Below are positions 25,613 through 42,234 of a stretch of 64,000 bases of DNA, piece by piece. The stretch comes from Pararhizobium gei. Its GTDB lineage: Bacteria; Pseudomonadota; Alphaproteobacteria; Rhizobiales; Rhizobiaceae. The stretch lies in NCBI RefSeq assembly GCF_029223885.1, contig NZ_CP119409.1, positions 1,018,001-1,082,000 of the forward strand, read 5' to 3'. A program made the translations under genes and the position numbers. The number at the start of each line of letters is the position of its first letter. Positions within the stretch are counted from its first letter, which is position 1. The notes below the pieces were generated by a model, which worked only from the letters and a program-made list of their open reading frames with translations, ran no database searches and was not told where the DNA came from.

Positions 25613-25882
25613 TCGTCGGCGTGGTTAACGAACGGTCAATCCTGCGCATCCATATTTGCCTGATCTAAAATATTAAAGCATTGATTTTGTTTGTTATTGC
25701 GCGCGTGAGCACAGTTCTTTGCGGCTTTCCATTATATTAGATACTTATTATGTAAGCATCACATTTAAACAAATCGCAATGTTTCTCTGCGACATTACCC
25801 TCACATGACGGATTTGGACCGCCTCACAAAAAGCGGACGAGTGGCATGATGCCGAGCCGTCATCACCGGTAAGTTTTTTAGT
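25613..25882. other. Upstream region of the first flagellin gene
   Basis: About 270 bases without a gene. The segment 25660-25800 is AT-rich (for example TCTAAAATATTAAAGCATTG and TTATATTAGATACTTATTAT) in contrast to its neighbours and probably holds the flaA promoter. The CRCRCAAG-N9-CTA box seen upstream of the structural operons is absent here. Confidence 0.5.
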
Positions 25883-25920
25883 CCGGTATGTCCCACTTTG
25901 TATCTCGTATTTAAGGGACA
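25883..25920 (+). promoter_or_regulatory. Leader element able to mask the flaA ribosome-binding site
   Basis: The block CCGGTATGTCCC (25883-25894) contains TGTCCC, the exact complement of GGGACA (25915-25920), which is the Shine-Dalgarno sequence six bases before the ATG. GG of the block can also pair with CC at 25922-25923. The same block, with matching complementarity, occurs in the other two flagellin leaders. Confidence 0.55.
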
Positions 25921-25926
25921 ACCTAC

Positions 25927-26901
25927 ATGACAAGCATCCTGACGAACTCTTCTGCAATGGCAGCACTCTCGACGCTGCGCTCCATCAGCTCCGACATGGA
26001 AACGACCCAGGGTCGCATTTCCTCGGGTCTGCGCGTTGGTAACGCGTCCGACAACGCTGCCTACTGGTCGATCGCCACGACCATGAAGTCGGACAACAAG
26101 GCACTCTCCACCGTTCAGGACGCTCTCGGTCTCGGCGCTGCCAAGACGGATACGGCCTATACCGGTCTGAACGCAGCCATCGACGTCGTTTCCGAAATCA
26201 AGGCCAAGCTGGTTGCTGCCCGTGAACCGGGCGTCGACAAGCTGAAGATCAACAAGGAAATCACCGAACTGAAGAACCAGCTGGTTTCGACGGCGACTTC
26301 GGCTTCCTTCTCCGGTGAAAACTGGCTCTACAACGATAGCGCAACTGCCATCGGCACCAAGGAAATGGTTGGCTCGTTCACCCGTTCCGCCACAGGTACT
26401 GTTGCTGTCGGCGTTGTTGCCTTCGATGCTTCGACCTCCGTGCTCATCGACACCAAGACATCTGCCAATGGCCAGCTGACCAAGGCTGTCGCGATTGCAC
26501 AGCCGAACGGTGCAACGGCTGCCACGACGGCAAACGCCACCTACCACCTGATCCTGTCTGCAGGCGGCACGGCGCCGACTGGCTCGACCCTCATCGCCCT
26601 GACAGCGACGAGCGCCGACGACGACATCGAAGGCATGATCAGTGCCGTCGACAAGATGTTGACCAGCCTGACGGACTCCGCTGCAACGCTGGGCGCCACC
26701 AACAAGCGCATCTCGATGCAGGACGACTTCATGGCCGACCTGATGGACGTGATCGACAAGGGCGTCGGCCGCCTCGTCGATGCCGACATGAACGAAGAAT
26801 CGACACGCCTCAAGGCCCTGCAGACACAGCAGCAGCTCGGTATCCAGGCGCTCTCGATTGCCAACTCGGACTCGCAGAACATCCTGTCGCTCTTCCGTTA
26901 A
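25927..26901 (+). CDS. flaA: Flagellin (first of three, FlaA position)
   Basis: A 324-residue rhizobial flagellin. The D0/D1 N-terminal part (MTSILTNSSAMAALSTLRSISSDMETTQGRISSG) and the C-terminal part (MNEESTRLKALQTQQQLGIQALSIANSDSQNILSLFR) form the filament core; the central variable region (about residues 140-230) is short, as in rhizobia. It is exported by the flagellar system and is the first of three tandem flagellin genes. In S. meliloti FlaA is the principal subunit of the complex filament. It has its own terminator. Shine-Dalgarno is GGGA. Confidence 0.94.
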   Translation: MTSILTNSSAMAALSTLRSISSDMETTQGRISSGLRVGNASDNAAYWSIATTMKSDNKALSTVQDALGLGAAKTDTAYTGLNAAIDVVSEIKAKLVAAREPGVDKLKINKEITELKNQLVSTATSASFSGENWLYNDSATAIGTKEMVGSFTRSATGTVAVGVVAFDASTSVLIDTKTSANGQLTKAVAIAQPNGATAATTANATYHLILSAGGTAPTGSTLIALTATSADDDIEGMISAVDKMLTSLTDSAATLGATNKRISMQDDFMADLMDVIDKGVGRLVDADMNEESTRLKALQTQQQLGIQALSIANSDSQNILSLFR

Positions 26902-26948
26902 GCCGGAAGCGCTGCCAACCGTTAAGGCTGGCCTGGTACGCCCAAAAG

Positions 26949-26979
26949 AAGCCGCATCCTGCAGAGGATGCGGCTTTTT
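26949..26979 (+). terminator. Intrinsic terminator after first flagellin gene
   Basis: Stem GCCGCATCCT (26951-26960) and AGGATGCGGC (26965-26974), extendable by two A-T pairs, with a four-base loop and five T. It lies about 50 bases after the stop, so the flagellins are separately transcribed. Confidence 0.93.
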
Positions 26980-27119
26980 CATTGCCCTATGAAAAAGTTT
27001 CTCCCTTTAGGTTTTCCTTAACCAAGATAGTGTTTTCTATGCCTATCGAAACAGCGGGTTAACCAAGAAATTTAACGCGTTAGCAGGCATGAAGCTGGCT
27101 GCTGTTTCCCGGTAACGAC

Positions 27120-27159
27120 CGGAATGTCCCTTCCATTTTCATCTGTTCAAAAGGGGCAG
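27120..27159 (+). promoter_or_regulatory. Leader element able to mask the second flagellin ribosome-binding site
   Basis: The block CCGGAATGTCCC (27120-27131) continues with TT. TGTCCCTT can form eight pairs, one of them G-U, with AAGGGGCA (27152-27159), which contains the Shine-Dalgarno sequence seven bases before the ATG at 27167. Confidence 0.55.
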
Positions 27160-27166
27160 TTTTACT

Positions 27167-28141
27167 ATGACGAGCATTCTCACCAATTCGGCTGCAATGG
27201 CCGCTCTGTCCACGCTGCGTTCGATCAATGACGGCATGGAAACGACCCAGGGTCGCGTGTCCTCCGGCCTGCGCGTCGAAACGGCTGCGGACAATGCTGC
27301 CTACTGGTCGATCGCAACGACAATGAAGTCGGACAACAAGGCGCTCTCCACCGTTCAGGACGCTCTCGGCCTTGGCGCTGCCAAGACGGATACCGCCTAT
27401 ACAGGTCTCGACAATGCCCTCGACGTCATTTCCGAAATCAAGGCCAAGCTCGTTGCTGCCCGCGAACCGGGCGTCGACAAGCTGAAGATCAACAAGGAAA
27501 TCACCGAACTCAAGAACCAGCTGGTTTCGACGTCACAGTCGGCGTCCTTCTCAGGCGAAAACTGGCTCTACAACGAGAGCGCCACCGCCATCGGCACCAA
27601 GGAAATGGTTGGCTCGTTCACCCGTTCGGCCGCCGGCACGGTCTCTGTCGGCATCGTGAGCTTCGATGCTTCAACGTCGGTTCTGATCGACACGAAAAAT
27701 GCGTCGCTCGGTCAACTGACCAAGGCTGTCGCGATTGCACAGCCGAACGGTGCAACGGCTGCCACCACGGCAAACGCCACCTACCACCTGATCTTGGCTG
27801 CAGGCGGCACGGCGCCGACTGGCTCGACCCTCATCGTTCTGACGGCGACGACCACCGACGACGAAATCGAAGGCATGATCAGTGCCGTCGACAAGATGTT
27901 CGGCAGCCTGACGGATGCTGCGGCCACCCTCGGTGCGACGAACCTGCGCATTTCCATGCAGGACGACTTCATGGCCGATCTGATGGACGTGATCGACAAG
28001 GGCGTCGGCCGCCTCGTCGATGCCGACATGAACGAAGAATCGACACGCCTCAAGGCGCTGCAGACACAGCAGCAGCTCGGTATCCAGGCGCTCTCGATCG
28101 CCAACTCCAACTCGGAAAACATCCTGTCGCTCTTCCGTTAA
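27167..28141 (+). CDS. flaB: Flagellin (second of three)
   Basis: A 324-residue flagellin with the same length and plan as the first. The terminal regions are nearly identical; differences are concentrated at about residues 20-40, 80-100, 115-125, 150-185 and 235-270. The DNA of the two genes shares long identical tracts, for example in the region coding for AVAIAQPNGATAATTANATYHLI. It has its own leader and its own terminator. By order it corresponds to FlaB of S. meliloti, but with only three genes the lettering is uncertain. Confidence 0.92.
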   Translation: MTSILTNSAAMAALSTLRSINDGMETTQGRVSSGLRVETAADNAAYWSIATTMKSDNKALSTVQDALGLGAAKTDTAYTGLDNALDVISEIKAKLVAAREPGVDKLKINKEITELKNQLVSTSQSASFSGENWLYNESATAIGTKEMVGSFTRSAAGTVSVGIVSFDASTSVLIDTKNASLGQLTKAVAIAQPNGATAATTANATYHLILAAGGTAPTGSTLIVLTATTTDDEIEGMISAVDKMFGSLTDAAATLGATNLRISMQDDFMADLMDVIDKGVGRLVDADMNEESTRLKALQTQQQLGIQALSIANSNSENILSLFR

Positions 28142-28184
28142 GCCGGGCGCAGCCTGGCCGCCGGATCGGCAGCCTCCAATCAGG

Positions 28185-28216
28185 AAACCGCGTCCCGGAA
28201 GGGGCGCGGTTTTTTC
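28185..28216 (+). terminator. Intrinsic terminator after second flagellin gene
   Basis: Arms AAACCGCGTCCC (28185-28196) and GGGGCGCGGTTT (28201-28212) form a 12-bp stem with one G-T pair and a four-base loop, followed by further T residues. It is about 44 bases after the stop. Confidence 0.92.
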
Positions 28217-28414
28217 GTTGAGGCCGCGCCCTCGCGGACCTTAACGATCTGGCAATAGACATTTCTTTCTGTTCATTTTGATTACCCGCTTGTTAATCCG
28301 TTTAAGAACTTGTTAACCATGTCGCTGTTAAACATGTCTTAAGCGATAGGCTGTCCCAGGGCAAAACAGTTGGACAGTTTGCATGATGCTGGTCCCGTCG
28401 CTGCCGGTTTCGAT

Positions 28415-28447
28415 CCGGAATGTTCCGTTTTCTTTCAAACTGGGGCA
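28415..28447 (+). promoter_or_regulatory. Leader element able to mask the third flagellin ribosome-binding site
   Basis: The block CCGGAATGTTCC (28415-28426) contains TGTTCC, which can pair with GGGGCA (28442-28447) using two G-U pairs. GGGGCA is the Shine-Dalgarno sequence seven bases before ATG 28455. Pairing is weaker than in the other two leaders. GGAATGTTCC is also itself a short inverted repeat. Confidence 0.45.
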
Positions 28448-28454
28448 ATGACCA

Positions 28455-29423
28455 ATGACCAGCATCCTGACCAACGCGGCAGCAATGGCCGCTCTTCAAA
28501 CCTTGCGTGCAATCAACACAAACATGGAAGAAGTCCAGAGCCGCATTTCGTCCGGATATCGCGTCGAAACGGCTGCGGACAATGCAGCCTACTGGTCAAT
28601 TGCGACCACGATGCGCTCCGACAATGCCGCGCTCTCGACCGTGCAGGATGCGCTGGGCCTCGGTGCGGCAAAGATCGACACCTCCTATTCCGGCATGAGC
28701 GCGGCTATCGACGTGGTTTCCGAGATCAAGGCGAAACTGGTTGCTGCCCGCGAACCGGGCGTCGATAAGACCAAGATCAACAAGGAACTGACGGAACTTA
28801 AGAACCAGCTGGTTTCCACAGCGGAGTCCGCTTCCTTCTCCGGCGAAAACTGGCTTTACAACGACAGCGCGACCGCCGCCGGCGTCAAGTCGATCGTTGC
28901 TTCGTTCAATCGCTCGACCAATGGCACCGTCTCTGTTTCGACCCTCGACTACAACACGGCTGCCTCCATCCTGGTCGATACCAAGAATTCCTCGCTCGGC
29001 CAGCTGACAAAGGGGATCGGTATCGTTCAGCCGAACGGTGCGACAACGGCAAATGCGACCTACCACCTTGTCCTCGTGGCCGGCGGCACGGCACCCACGG
29101 GCTCGGTTCTGATTAACCTGACCGCCGCCACCACCGATGATGCGATGGAAGGCATGATCAGCGCCGTCGACAAGATCCTGAGCAACCTGACCGATGCCGC
29201 ATCGACTCTTGGTGCTATCACCAGCCGTATCGACATGCAGGAAAATTTCGTCGCCAACCTGATGGATGTGATCGACAAGGGCGTCGGCCGTCTGGTCGAT
29301 GCGGATATGAACGAGGAATCGACCCGCCTCAAGGCTCTCCAGACGCAACAGCAGCTCGGCGTTCAGGCACTGTCCATCGCCAATACCAATTCCGAAAATA
29401 TCCTCCGCCTGTTCCAGCAGTAA
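28455..29423 (+). CDS. Flagellin (third of three)
   Basis: A 322-residue flagellin, more divergent than the first two (start MTSILTNAAAMAALQTLRAINTNMEEVQSRISSG; end LSIANTNSENILRLFQQ). The core helices are conserved and the central variable region differs most (VKSIVASFNRSTNGTVSVSTLDYNTAASILVDTKN). In the S. meliloti order it would correspond to FlaD or FlaC. It has its own 313-base upstream region with repeated GTTAA-type AT-rich sequence near 28285-28340, and a group of hairpins follows it. Confidence 0.92.
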   Translation: MTSILTNAAAMAALQTLRAINTNMEEVQSRISSGYRVETAADNAAYWSIATTMRSDNAALSTVQDALGLGAAKIDTSYSGMSAAIDVVSEIKAKLVAAREPGVDKTKINKELTELKNQLVSTAESASFSGENWLYNDSATAAGVKSIVASFNRSTNGTVSVSTLDYNTAASILVDTKNSSLGQLTKGIGIVQPNGATTANATYHLVLVAGGTAPTGSVLINLTAATTDDAMEGMISAVDKILSNLTDAASTLGAITSRIDMQENFVANLMDVIDKGVGRLVDADMNEESTRLKALQTQQQLGVQALSIANTNSENILRLFQQ

Positions 29424-36753: not shown

Positions 36754-37425
36754 ATGATCGTTGTGGTTGATGAGCGTGAGCTTGTAAAAGACGGATATAC
36801 TTCACTGTTCGGGCGGGAGGGCGTGCCTTCCACAGGGTTCGATCCAAGCGAATTCGGTGACTGGGTCAGCACGGCGGCTGACTCGGATATCGACGCGGTG
36901 GAAGTCTTCCTGATCGGTCAGGGACAGCAGGCCATGAGCCTGCCCCGGGCAATAAGGGATAGGTCCCAGGCGCCGGTGATCGCCATCAGCGATTCTCCCT
37001 CGCTGGAAACGACGCTGGCCTTTTTCGACTGCGGCGTCGACGACGTCGTACGCAAGCCGGTTCATCCCCGTGAAATCCTCGCCCGTGCCGCGGCCATTCG
37101 CCGTCGTTTGAAGGCGCTGACGAACTATATCGATATCGGCCCGATCCGGGTGTTCTCGGACGGCCGCGATCCGGAAGTCCATGGCGCGGTTTTTGCCTTG
37201 CCGCGGCGCGAACGCCGCATCCTGGAATATCTGGTCTCCAACCGCGGACGCCGCGTGTCGAAGACGCAGATCTTCAACGCCATCTACGGCATTTTCGACG
37301 AAGACGTCGAAGAGAACGTCGTGGAAAGCCACATCAGCAAGCTGCGCAAGAAGCTGCGCAAGCGGCTCGGCTTCGATCCGATCGATTCCAAGCGTTTCCT
37401 TGGCTACTGCATCGACTGGAGCTGA
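36754..37425 (+). CDS. rem: OmpR-type exponential-phase motility activator Rem
   Basis: A 223-residue regulator with an N-terminal receiver-like domain and a C-terminal OmpR-type winged helix ([33 protein letters not shown], then [20 protein letters not shown]). The receiver keeps acidic residues at 6-7 (VVDERE) and Lys101 (RKPVHP), but at the usual phospho-acceptor place after strand 3 it reads VFLIGQG, with no Asp. It may therefore act without phosphorylation. In S. meliloti Rem is activated by VisNR, switches on structural and motor genes and confines motility to exponential growth. Confidence 0.92.
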
Positions 37426-40356: not shown

Positions 40357-41403
40357 ATGAAGACGTCCTACGTTTCCAATCTGGCGGTTCAAAATGCCAT
40401 GCGCTCGACCATCGCGCTGGGGCAACTCGAGCTGATAAAGCTTCAACAGGAAGTGACGACGGGAAAATATGCCGACGCGGGTGCTGCACTCGGCGCTACG
40501 TCGTCGCGCTCGGTAAGTCTGAAGAACGAACTGGAGCGGCTGGCCAGCCTCAAGGAAACGAACGCGATCGTGAAGCAGCGTCTGTCTGCGTCCCAGTCGG
40601 CACTCGAGACGATGCGCAAGGCGGCCGAGCAGATAAACACGACGCTCATCGCCACGCTGGGAAATGACGACACGACGCGCCTTAATATCGCAAAGACCGA
40701 CATCAACGGCGCTCTCAGTTCATTCGTCGCCGCGGCGAACATCCAGTTTAACGGCGAATTTCTGATGTCCGGCATCAACACCGATATCAAGCCGTTGGCG
40801 GAATACAATGCAACGTCCTTGGCCAAGGCATCGTTCGTCACGGCCCGCGATGATTATATGGACGCGAACGGCATTGCGACCATGAAGGATTTCACGGTCG
40901 CGCAGATGAACGACTTCATCACCACCAAGATCGAGCCGATGTATACCGGTTCCCAGTGGGACACAGACTGGTCGCAGGCGTCCGACCAGAACATCATGAG
41001 CCGCATCAGCGCCAATGAGGTGGTGCAGAGCACGACGAATACCAACACCATGGGCGTGCGGAAATTCGCCCTGGCGGCTGTCTTGTCGATCGAGCTTCTC
41101 GGCGAGGATCTGTCCTCCGACGTTCGTACCGCCGTCAACATGGCATCGCAGAATTACGTGCAGCAGAGTTCTACGGGGATTATCGAAACCAGCAGCACGC
41201 TGGGCATTTCCGAGGCCCGCCTGAAAAAGGCGGATACGTCGATCGATGCGCAGAAGAAGCTGGTTCAGCTGCATATAACGGACATTGAGGGGGTCGATGT
41301 CTATGAGGCGTCGACGCGCATGAACGCGCTGCTGACGCAGATCGAGACGTCCTACACGCTGACGTCGCGGCTTCAGCAAATGAGTTTGATAAATTTCCTC
41401 TGA
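40357..41403 (+). CDS. flgL: Hook-filament junction protein FlgL
   Basis: A 348-residue flagellin-like junction protein. It starts MKTSYVSNLAVQNAMRSTIALGQLELIKLQQEVTTGKYADAGAALG and ends with a helix typical for the family (VYEASTRMNALLTQIETSYTLTSRLQQMSLINFL). It sits between FlgK and the first flagellins. It is directly downstream of flgK in the same operon. Length is in the usual range. Confidence 0.93.
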   Translation: MKTSYVSNLAVQNAMRSTIALGQLELIKLQQEVTTGKYADAGAALGATSSRSVSLKNELERLASLKETNAIVKQRLSASQSALETMRKAAEQINTTLIATLGNDDTTRLNIAKTDINGALSSFVAAANIQFNGEFLMSGINTDIKPLAEYNATSLAKASFVTARDDYMDANGIATMKDFTVAQMNDFITTKIEPMYTGSQWDTDWSQASDQNIMSRISANEVVQSTTNTNTMGVRKFALAAVLSIELLGEDLSSDVRTAVNMASQNYVQQSSTGIIETSSTLGISEARLKKADTSIDAQKKLVQLHITDIEGVDVYEASTRMNALLTQIETSYTLTSRLQQMSLINFL

Positions 41404-41440: not shown

Positions 41441-41788
41441 ATGTATCAGTTTTCATATGCCGAGATCATGGAGGACGGCATTGCCGACTCCAAGGATCGC
41501 GAGCGGCAAGTGCTCGATCGCTCGATTGCGCTGCTGGCAGCCGCAAAAAAGCAAAAGGGCTACTCGAGGGAGGCCATCGAGGCGATCTATTATACCCGCC
41601 GTGTCTGGATCCGTTTCATCGAGGATCTTCGCGCTTCGGACAATCAGTTGAACGACGAATTGCGCGCTAACCTTATCTCCATCGCCATCTGGATTCTGGG
41701 CGAGACGGAAAAGATTCGCAAACGCGAGTCCTCCAACTTCCAGGGCATCATAGATATCACAACCATCATCAGGGATGGACTCAAATGA
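41441..41788 (+). CDS. flaF: Flagellin regulator FlaF
   Basis: A 115-residue helical protein ([63 protein letters not shown]). FlaF is found in alphaproteobacteria and is needed for flagellin production, probably acting as a flagellin chaperone and translational regulator together with FlbT. It overlaps flbT by four bases. No helix-turn-helix or membrane segment is present. Confidence 0.93.
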
Positions 41789-42234
41789 AAAGCACATTGC
41801 GTATATCGCTCAAGTCGGGCGAACGGATTTTTGTCAACGGCGCTGTGCTTCGCGTCGATCGAAAGGTCGCCGTCGAGTTCCTGAACGATGTCACCTTCCT
41901 GCTCGAAAACCATGTCCTGCAGCCGGAAGACGCCACGACGCCGCTGAAACAGCTCTATTTCATCGGGCAGATGATCCTCATTAATCCTGAGGGTGCCGAA
42001 CAGTCGACGAACATGTTCCGCAAATCCGTGGTCATGCTTTTGACTTGCTTCAAGAACGAAGACATCATCAGCGAACTCAAGCGGATCGACGGCATGGTCG
42101 CGCAGGGGCGGGCTTTCGATGCCTTGAAGGCAATCCGCGGTCTTTACTCTACCGAGGACCGCATTCTCAACAATCAGGAAATCGCGCCGGCGATGGTCGA
42201 GCAGATTCGCAAGGAGATCGCACCATGGCGGTAA
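41785..42234 (+). CDS. flbT: Flagellin mRNA regulator FlbT
   Basis: A 149-residue protein with the FlbT opening [65 protein letters not shown]. In Caulobacter FlbT binds the 5' untranslated region of flagellin mRNA and promotes its decay. The flagellin leaders in this window carry a conserved block that could be its target. Its last ten bases overlap the start of flgD, an arrangement that favours translational coupling. Confidence 0.94.

Follow-up and report, generated by a model that had tools for sequence, protein, structure and literature searches.

A Structured Five-Helix Leader RNA of Flagellin Genes in Pararhizobium gei and Its Possible Role in Covering the Ribosome-Binding Site

Introduction

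Leaders that hide the Shine-Dalgarno (SD) sequence are already known as a kind, and in SD-sequestering riboswitches and translational-operator leaders a sensor domain lies upstream of the stem that covers the SD. Flagellin mRNA is under CsrA/FliW control in Bacillus, and a CsrA target combines a GGA in a hairpin loop with a GGA at the SD. Here, we analyzed the leaders of three flagellin genes, flaA (25927..26901), flaB (27167..28141) and flaC (28455..29423), all on the forward strand of a 64,000-nucleotide stretch of the Pararhizobium gei genome (contig NZ_CP119409.1, positions 1,018,001 to 1,082,000). This whole stretch is called the window hereafter, and coordinates refer to it unless a contig is named. 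The layout of the three leaders, a putative sensor followed by an SD stem, is that of the SD-sequestering riboswitches and operators, but their RNA matches no Rfam 15 family. The 64 kb window gave no match at the gathering score, and the two sub-threshold matches found between 25400 and 29800 at E <=1 both lie outside the leaders.

The CsrA/FliW system of Campylobacter (PMC4894983) is alike in that control is post-transcriptional and passes through the leader. It differs in that, on direct reading, the SD of two of the three window genes (GGGGCA in flaB and flaC) holds no GGA, and other flagellin types of the order look closer to it. The flg-Rhizobiales motif RF01736 (Weinberg 2010, PMC2864571), also a conserved Rhizobiales RNA with a name pointing to flagella, was considered as the identity of the element and rejected. 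This 141-position model had no match in the P. gei genome (E <=10) and none in 20 loci carrying the element (E <=1), and a score of 55 bits was not reached. In one genome (G060), the RF01736 match (C1:6507829) lies far from the flagellins that carry our motif (C1:2756299).

Action of FlbT on flagellin 5′ untranslated regions (UTRs) is known from Caulobacter, and it has been proposed for both Caulobacter and Brucella (PMC3930126, PMC7591256, PMC4347634). In Caulobacter, FlbT and a flagellin paralogue repress flagellin translation until export removes the paralogue, with FlaF as the export chaperone (PMC7591256, PMC9812332). According to a 2015 review (PMC4347634), how FlbT acts on flagellin mRNA is unresolved. 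The FlbT-controlled Caulobacter UTR (cited in PMC3930126, PMC4347634) resembles the present element as an alphaproteobacterial flagellin leader associated with FlbT, FlaF and post-transcriptional control. It differs in that R1, our covariance model of the leader described below, found nothing convincing in 29 flagellin-domain loci of the class from outside the order (best E 0.39), the Caulobacter leader sequence itself not being among those compared. No earlier description of the five-helix RNA was found in the open-access articles that were searched.

Architecture of the Three Flagellin Leaders

Comparative analysis shows that the flaA, flaB and flaC mRNAs carry a predicted structured 5′ leader of about 115-130 nt with five helices. 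Pa closes a three-way junction made up of the P-1 hairpin and the P0 mini-hairpin, and is followed by P1 and then by P2. The latter joins the SD, which lies shortly before the AUG, to UGUCCC or to a covarying variant of it. An earlier reading of the sequence alone, without database searches (the sequence-only reading), had proposed that a block in each leader is complementary to the SD of the same gene. When both arms were read and located, the pairings were as it had given them in all three leaders, G-U pairs included. Its distances required small corrections: from block to ATG, 28-35 had been given and we measured 32 (flaA), 36 (flaB) and 28 (flaC), and from SD to ATG, six or seven had been given and we measured 6, 8 and 7, respectively. 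Its statement that the leaders otherwise differ did not hold. A GCATGAnGC-N-CCGGT arrangement is common to all three (three matches in the window, 0.02 expected), and one five-helix fold fits flaA, flaB and flaC alike.

The blocks themselves are CCGGTATGTCCC in flaA (25883-25894), CCGGAATGTCCC in flaB (27119-27130) and CCGGAATGTTCC in flaC (28415-28426). Since the first half of the block (CCGG) has its partner in an upstream CCGG, and not in the SD, the bases of the block are explained as a P1 arm (CCGGn), a linker (A) and a P2 arm (UGUCCC).

In flaA, the structured leader spans 25796..25927, its last base being the A of the ATG, and is matched by the covariance model with 44.0 bits. The 5′ arm of Pa, ATGACGG (25805..25811), is followed by the P-1 hairpin (25812..25842 in the fold, with AUUUG/CGAGU and CCGC/GCGG), the P0 mini-hairpin GGC-AUGAU-GCC (25843..25853) and the 3′ arm of Pa, CCGTCAT (25857..25863). 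P1 is formed by ACCGG (25865..25869) and CCGGT in the block (25883..25887), and P2 by the anti-SD arm TGTCCC (25889..25894) and the SD arm GGGACA (25915..25920).

The flaB leader (27042..27165; 30.9 bits) has Pa arms GAAACAGC (27048..27055) and GCTGTTTC (27101..27108) enclosing the P-1 hairpin (GTTAAC/GTTAGC; 27058..27084) and P0 GGCATGAAGCT (27086..27096). Its P1 consists of CCGG (27109..27112) and CCGG (27119..27122), and its P2 of TGTCCCTT (anti-SD; 27125..27132) and AAGGGGCA (SD; 27151..27158). A nearer CTGTTC arm in flaB is also able to cover the SD.

The flaC leader (28334..28454) scored 92.8 bits, its own sequence being in the training set of the model. Its Pa arms AGCGAT (28342..28347) and GTCGCT (28397..28402) form five Watson-Crick pairs and one G-U pair around the P-1 hairpin (CTGTCC/GGACAG; 28351..28377), with CAGGGCAAA in its loop at 28357-28365, and P0 GCATGATGC (28381..28389). 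The P1 arms are CCGG (28404..28407) and CCGG (28415..28418), and the P2 arms TGTTCC (anti-SD; 28421..28426) and GGGGCA (SD; 28442..28447).

Pairing of the Block With the Shine-Dalgarno Sequence

Flagellin leaders were gathered by protein similarity rather than by motif. Named genomes contributed 78 loci (the best 80 of 586 relatives being kept), and further leaders came from other genomes of the same genus and order. The P2 pairing tests (partner exchange and pair counts) used only these protein-sampled leaders. In 244 leaders (one of 245 was left out, having no anchor), the duplex of block and SD was stronger than that of exchanged partners, with an energy z of -6.7 (0 of 5000 permutations). 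For this and later P2 tests, 163 representatives were also used, six of 169 (L237, L238, L239, L245, L299, L304) being left out because they lack the block. In these, the energy z was -4.6 and the z for Watson-Crick pairs 3.6 (0 of 2000 permutations each). Relatedness among leaders inflates such exchange statistics, and single cases of double change therefore matter. One family (L257, L301, L302, L314) pairs TGTCTTTC with GAAAGACG, and two further leaders pair TGTTTCG with CGAAACA (L303) and ACTCA with TGAGT (L298). All of them replace C-G by U-A through a double change and are not cases of G-U tolerance. Over the 163 representatives, changed positions of the anti-SD arm formed 37 Watson-Crick pairs (27.9 expected by exchange) and 32 G-U pairs.

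The predicted probability that the SD is paired was 0.765, versus 0.677 with the upstream part shuffled, in the 147 of 163 leaders with coding sequence in the same locus. It averaged 0.606 at the 23 other ORF starts of the window.

The second stem of the block, P1, behaved similarly. Arms other than CCGG change together, as in GCCTT/AAGGC (L303), ACGG/CCGT (L016, L019), TGTCGG/CCGACA (L244), GCCGA/TCGGC (G089) and TGCCGGG/CCTGGCA (L058). The P1 and P0 tests comprised 206 leaders, of which 43 were sampled by the block-SD pattern. Exchange of P1 partners gave a z of -6.8 in all of them and of -5.9 in the 16 whose block lacks CCGG (0 of 2000 each), versus 0.1 in a control on a region farther upstream.

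The Three-Way Junction

Pa is a long-range helix found through covariation by RNAalifold in an alignment of 39 leaders (alignment A1), hand-picked as flaC-type (L049 doubtful) and aligned with MAFFT. Its words are unrelated between the paralogues and occupy the same place: ATGACGG/CCGTCAT (7 bp), GAAACAGC/GCTGTTTC (8 bp) and AGCGAT/GTCGCT (6 bp, one of them G-U). At random places of the window, a perfect helix of about this geometry arises by chance with at least 7 bp in 1.5% and at least 8 bp in 0.35% of cases. The Pa exchange and regional folding tests were run on the 175 leaders that reach far enough upstream and contain a CATGA anchor (40 of them sampled by pattern), and partner exchange of Pa gave a z of -11.5 (0 of 1000; control z 0.8). 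The regional mean folding z was -1.10 for P-1, -1.24 for P2 and -0.17 farther upstream.

The arms of P-1 vary freely yet stay complementary, as in CTGTCC/GGACAG, CGCCTCG/CGAGGCG and GCTGGCCG/CGGCCAGC. P0 is three pairs long: its third pair is Watson-Crick in 122 of 198 leaders (82 expected; the maximum of 2000 permutations was 97), its fourth position is paired below chance, and five leaders have GAC/GUC in place of GGC/GCC. The AUGAN loop of P0 is nearly invariant (199 of 206 leaders, the other seven including three ATTA and one ATCA), and its last base is free (T 94, A 54, C 34, G 17). Nearly invariant unpaired bases are essentially this AUGA, plus a loop in one lineage. The SD-like word GGGCAAA lies in the P-1 loop and occurs within the first 60 nt of 23 of the 39 aligned leaders. 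In flaC-type leaders it could compete for the anti-SD arm and is a candidate alternative partner. The flaC P-1 loop CAGGGCAAA, present in 22 of the 39, repeats the SD word found in some of these mRNAs. In some leaders from outside the Rhizobiaceae (L165, L167, L138), P-1 is a long inverted repeat, for example TTGAGCAT/ATGCTCAA or TTGGACC/GGTCCAA, that directly precedes AAAGGCATGA or AGGCATGA.

Whole-Structure Covariation, Detection and Folding

Over the 29 pairs of the structure, covariation in A1 was 0.253, versus 0.181 +/- 0.009 after shuffling (0 of 500), and partners slid out of register gave at most 0.122. Cells changed on both sides numbered 88 versus 39. Double changes affected 8 of 8 pairs in Pa, 6 of 7 in P-1, 1 of 3 in P0 and 2 of 5 in P1. 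A covarying stem thus pairs the SD, but in this unfitted alignment only one of the six P2 pairs is double-changed and the others are one-sided, mostly C-G to U-G. In A2, an alignment of 73 model-fitted matches that by construction leans to the structure, covariation was 0.431 versus 0.163 +/- 0.007 (slid partners at most 0.092), with 25 of 29 pairs double-changed. The covariation that the sequence-only reading had wanted examined is thus strong for Pa and P-1, whereas P1, P2 and P0 vary less and show clear double changes in other families. Among 135 protein-sampled leaders, the energy cut was passed by Pa in 127, by P1 in 132, by P2 in 124 and by all three in 113.

The covariance model R1 was built from A1, with the window flaC leader in its training set and the flaA and flaB leaders absent from it. 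Up to E=10 it found exactly three matches in the 64 kb window, all of them the flagellin leaders (E 4.9e-22, 9.6e-10 and 1.9e-6). It also detected flagellin leaders in other families of the order: 87 order- and class-level loci gave 73 matches (E <=1), with a flagellin ORF behind 70; of the other three, one was cut by the locus end and two were non-significant. The block-SD pattern had served to select most of the order-level loci; it constrains P2 and half of P1 but leaves Pa, P-1 and P0 free. In 63 Rhizobiaceae loci, R1 gave 138 matches at E <=1. Five matches at E <=10 came from 60 other loci (those of the fourth flagellin, of other flagellin types, of chance pattern matches, of FlbT and of RF01736); the strongest, at E 0.011, was in L128, a locus that had itself been retrieved with part of the motif. 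Base pairs raised the scores from 35.4 to 44.0 bits for flaA, from 22.0 to 30.9 for flaB and from 25.4 to 49.3 for L214. In several other families, a model of sequence without base pairs gave worse E values (L214, 2.2e-6 vs 2.1e-10; L179, 3.0e-7 vs 3.7e-11).

Folding of the leaders, also proposed by the sequence-only reading, gave a divided answer. Without constraints, the flaA leader (z -1.58) and L214 from another family (z -4.78) yielded the five-helix model itself, but other z-scores were weak and the flaC model was not at its minimum, as detailed below. The model fold appears once the upstream junction is included in the folded sequence. RNAalifold returned no structure from a gappy MAFFT alignment of 169 short leaders.

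Distribution and Link to FlbT

In the sequences searched, the element is located upstream of flagellin genes, and the genomes that carry it also encode FlbT. The 11 fixed positions of the block are exact in 129 of 210 leaders (75 nt upstream), and 41 others miss one. The word CCGGNATGTYCC occurs ten times in the P. gei genome, three of these being the leaders described here. The exact pattern of the block, N8..36 and AGGGRCA was found in 43 of 297 genomes of the order and 21 of 123 genera (61 matches listed), versus none for a reversed-pattern control. In 60 loci covering places of this pattern, a flagellin ORF follows 65 of 66 matches; the remaining match lies at a contig end. The block was not seen in the leaders of 29 Flagellin_N loci from outside the order. 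A strict class-wide pattern of promoter plus block matched only G000 and G060 among 385 genomes and was discarded as too strict to describe a distribution. The element is lacking or blurred in a few leaders (L130, L305, L075, L076, L082).

FlbT, which the sequence-only reading had placed at 41785, is encoded in the same window (flbT, 41785..42234, +; PF07378 match 41785-42231, E 2.7e-40), where it shares a flagellar cluster with flaF (41441..41788, +; PF07309, Pfam-confirmed, profile match 41441-41785). It is the candidate trans-acting partner of the leaders, encoded in the same genome and flagellar cluster. No relative of FlbT was found in the PDB by sequence. In the order, FlbT is present in 210 of 297 genomes and in all 43 with the exact motif. 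The motif occurs in 19 of the 28 genomes with two flbT copies, in 24 of the 182 single-copy genomes and in none of the 87 genomes without flbT. In five mixed genera (g73, g100, g111, g37, g93), 17 of 18 two-copy and 0 of 12 one-copy genomes have it. In four genomes (G060, G168, G261, G278), one flbT copy is located 12-13 kb from the flagellins with the motif, and its profile match is 372 nt long, versus 366 nt for the other copy. According to PMC6406911, Rhizobiaceae have a single flagellar system, of the lateral kind and with flbT and flaF genes of its own, which some Bradyrhizobium and a few other genera possess as a second system. The element fits this lateral system, and its tie to FlbT is one of company only: because the element belongs to one flagellar system, the presence of FlbT in all motif genomes also follows from that membership.

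Proposed Mechanism and Alternatives

The best reading of these sequence comparisons is a translational switch, and the leader is probably an on/off control for making the flagellar filament. The sequence-only reading had come to a switch as well. Its SD-hiding hairpin is borne out by the stronger duplex of own partners and by the double changes, but its account was incomplete, P1 and the junction having been missed. With P2 closed, the 30S subunit could not bind and flagellin would not be made. Acting as a recognition platform, the junction would tip P2 towards the closed or the open state, and its most likely reader would be FlbT, possibly together with flagellin and relieved by FlaF-aided export, as for Caulobacter. 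Filament protein would then be made only once the hook-basal body can export it. FlbT is a plausible effector, and as repressor or activator it could work on P2 with either sign. Overall, we think it rather likely that translation is controlled through P2 with FlbT as the probable reader. More tentatively, and with somewhat less than even confidence, we propose that the RNA is an undescribed leader class on lateral-type flagellins across the Hyphomicrobiales, in which a three-way junction with the small, conserved AUGAN hairpin would be the receptor of FlbT, or of FlbT with flagellin, closing the SD stem and coupling translation to export. If so, this leader class would supply the RNA component so far missing from the FlbT system. 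The question of the FlbT mechanism becomes directly testable with a defined RNA of 120 nt whose helices are named and for which nature offers both compensatory variants and losses. By sequence and structure, the leader also marks one flagellar system in a large group of bacteria associated with plants and animals, and it is a candidate RNA family without a match in Rfam 15.

Several observations weigh against this interpretation. The sequence-only reading had named leaders that keep the block and lose its complement as evidence against a switch, and such a case occurs locally. In G094 and G130, two genomes from a single genus, Pa, P-1, P0, P1 and the start of the block are retained, with TGTCAAAA in place of the anti-SD arm. 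With G-U pairs allowed, own partners paired no better than exchanged ones in the 60 non-consensus blocks (273 of 1000 permutations as high), and 32 changed positions of the anti-SD arm were unpaired versus 28.8 expected by exchange. SD occlusion was not significant in any single window leader, 14%, 15% and 20% of shuffles being as high. Minimum-energy z-scores were weak and not significant for the truncated leaders (-0.88, -0.09, +1.16) and modest for the full ones (flaA -1.58, flaB -1.72, flaC +0.35). The flaC model fold lies 0.7 kcal/mol above the minimum, and the P0-P1 stretch alone had a mean folding z of -0.12. Since the model without base pairs also finds the window leaders, with similar E values and a better one for a leader of L185, detection alone does not prove the fold. 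The extent of the transcript was taken from the RNA helices, because the accessible parts of PMC3616915, PMC10469942, PMC2936354, PMC12826043 and PMC3460909 gave no transcription-start coordinates for these flagellin genes. As for FlbT, the link is a co-occurrence that any gene of the same flagellar system would show, and the exact motif is absent from 9 of the 28 genomes with two flbT copies. Its reported role also differs, with repression and mRNA decay in Caulobacter (PMC3930126) and proposed activation in Brucella (PMC4347634). In the genus of the two exceptional genomes, the pattern search gave no exact motif in the other members. Where tested, the junction can thus persist without this SD stem, as expected if the junction serves recognition and P2 is the output.

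The same behavior would suit a structured RNA read by something other than FlbT, such as a small ligand in the manner of a riboswitch, another RNA-binding protein or a small RNA, with the junction as sensor and P2 as expression platform. A conserved junction followed by an SD-covering stem, the nearly invariant AUGAN loop, the GGGCAAA of the P-1 loop and the kept junction of the two exceptional genomes all agree with such a reader. We nevertheless regard it as unlikely: no riboswitch or other Rfam family matched, the scarcity of invariant unpaired bases besides P0 would be unusual for most metabolite aptamers, and a flagellin-specific regulator, FlbT, is already known in this bacterial class. 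Melting of P2 by temperature, as in an RNA thermometer, is the least probable of the readings considered. G-U pairs in some SD stems would fit it, but no Rfam thermometer family matched and the junction would be left with no role.

A folded 5′ region is common on long-lived mRNAs, and P-1 and P2 are the parts that fold most strongly relative to shuffles, as they might if the leader mainly set mRNA lifetime or a fixed translation rate without switching. A pure stability element, however, would not need P2 to cover the SD and to co-change with it in distant families, which makes this reading quite improbable. Alternatively, block and SD could be DNA elements (operator or promoter), their complementarity being a by-product of CC-rich and GG-rich motifs. 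GCATGAnGC is a near-palindrome held 13-15 nt from CGG in 130 of 131 cases measured, and a CtrA-like TTAA-N7-TTAA stands just before the flaC RNA (28328-28342). We give this possibility very little weight, given that the spacing of the arms is variable (10-28 nt for the P2 loop, 4-16 nt from CGG to block), that Pa and P1 covary with clean controls, and that DNA symmetry would not allow the free last base of AUGAN. Likewise, GCATGAnGC-N13..15-CCGGT was tried as a -35/-10 promoter and set aside because P1 and Pa are covarying helices.

Other Flagellin Leaders and Neighboring Genes

The CtrA-like motif upstream of flaC ends on the first base of the Pa 5′ arm. CtrA motifs are listed for flaA, flaC and flaD of Sinorhizobium meliloti in PMC3616915, which also contains an unassigned promoter motif, TTTGTTAACCAT, that TTGTTAACCAT (28310-28320), conserved in flaC types, resembles.

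The P. gei genome encodes a fourth, divergent flagellin outside the window, without the block. Reading of the leaders and searches with R1 revealed no such leader for this flagellin in P. gei or in relatives of the same genus. The fourth flagellin (L004, L327-L334) has a different conserved leader, with TCCGTT/AGCGGA beside the start in most copies, which could form a short hairpin. This flagellin may be the counterpart of the Caulobacter FljJ co-repressor. Among other flagellin types of the order (L307-L324), several flagellins of the MSDITLSAGVRQNLL type carry yet another leader, in which a hairpin (for example GCTCAGGAAGAGC) is combined with an SD (for example CCAGGAAGGA) and which we take to resemble CsrA-type GGA sites. 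In the flagellin region of G013, several flagellin-like matches contain stop codons, which suggests decayed copies or assembly errors.

In the window, profile searches placed FlgE and FlgK in the same cluster as FlbT and FlaF. The cluster also encodes a protein (36754-37422) that has the DNA-binding C-terminus of a response regulator and a receiver domain below threshold, and an additional protein with flagellin N- and C-terminal domains (40357-41400), presumably FlgL from its position.

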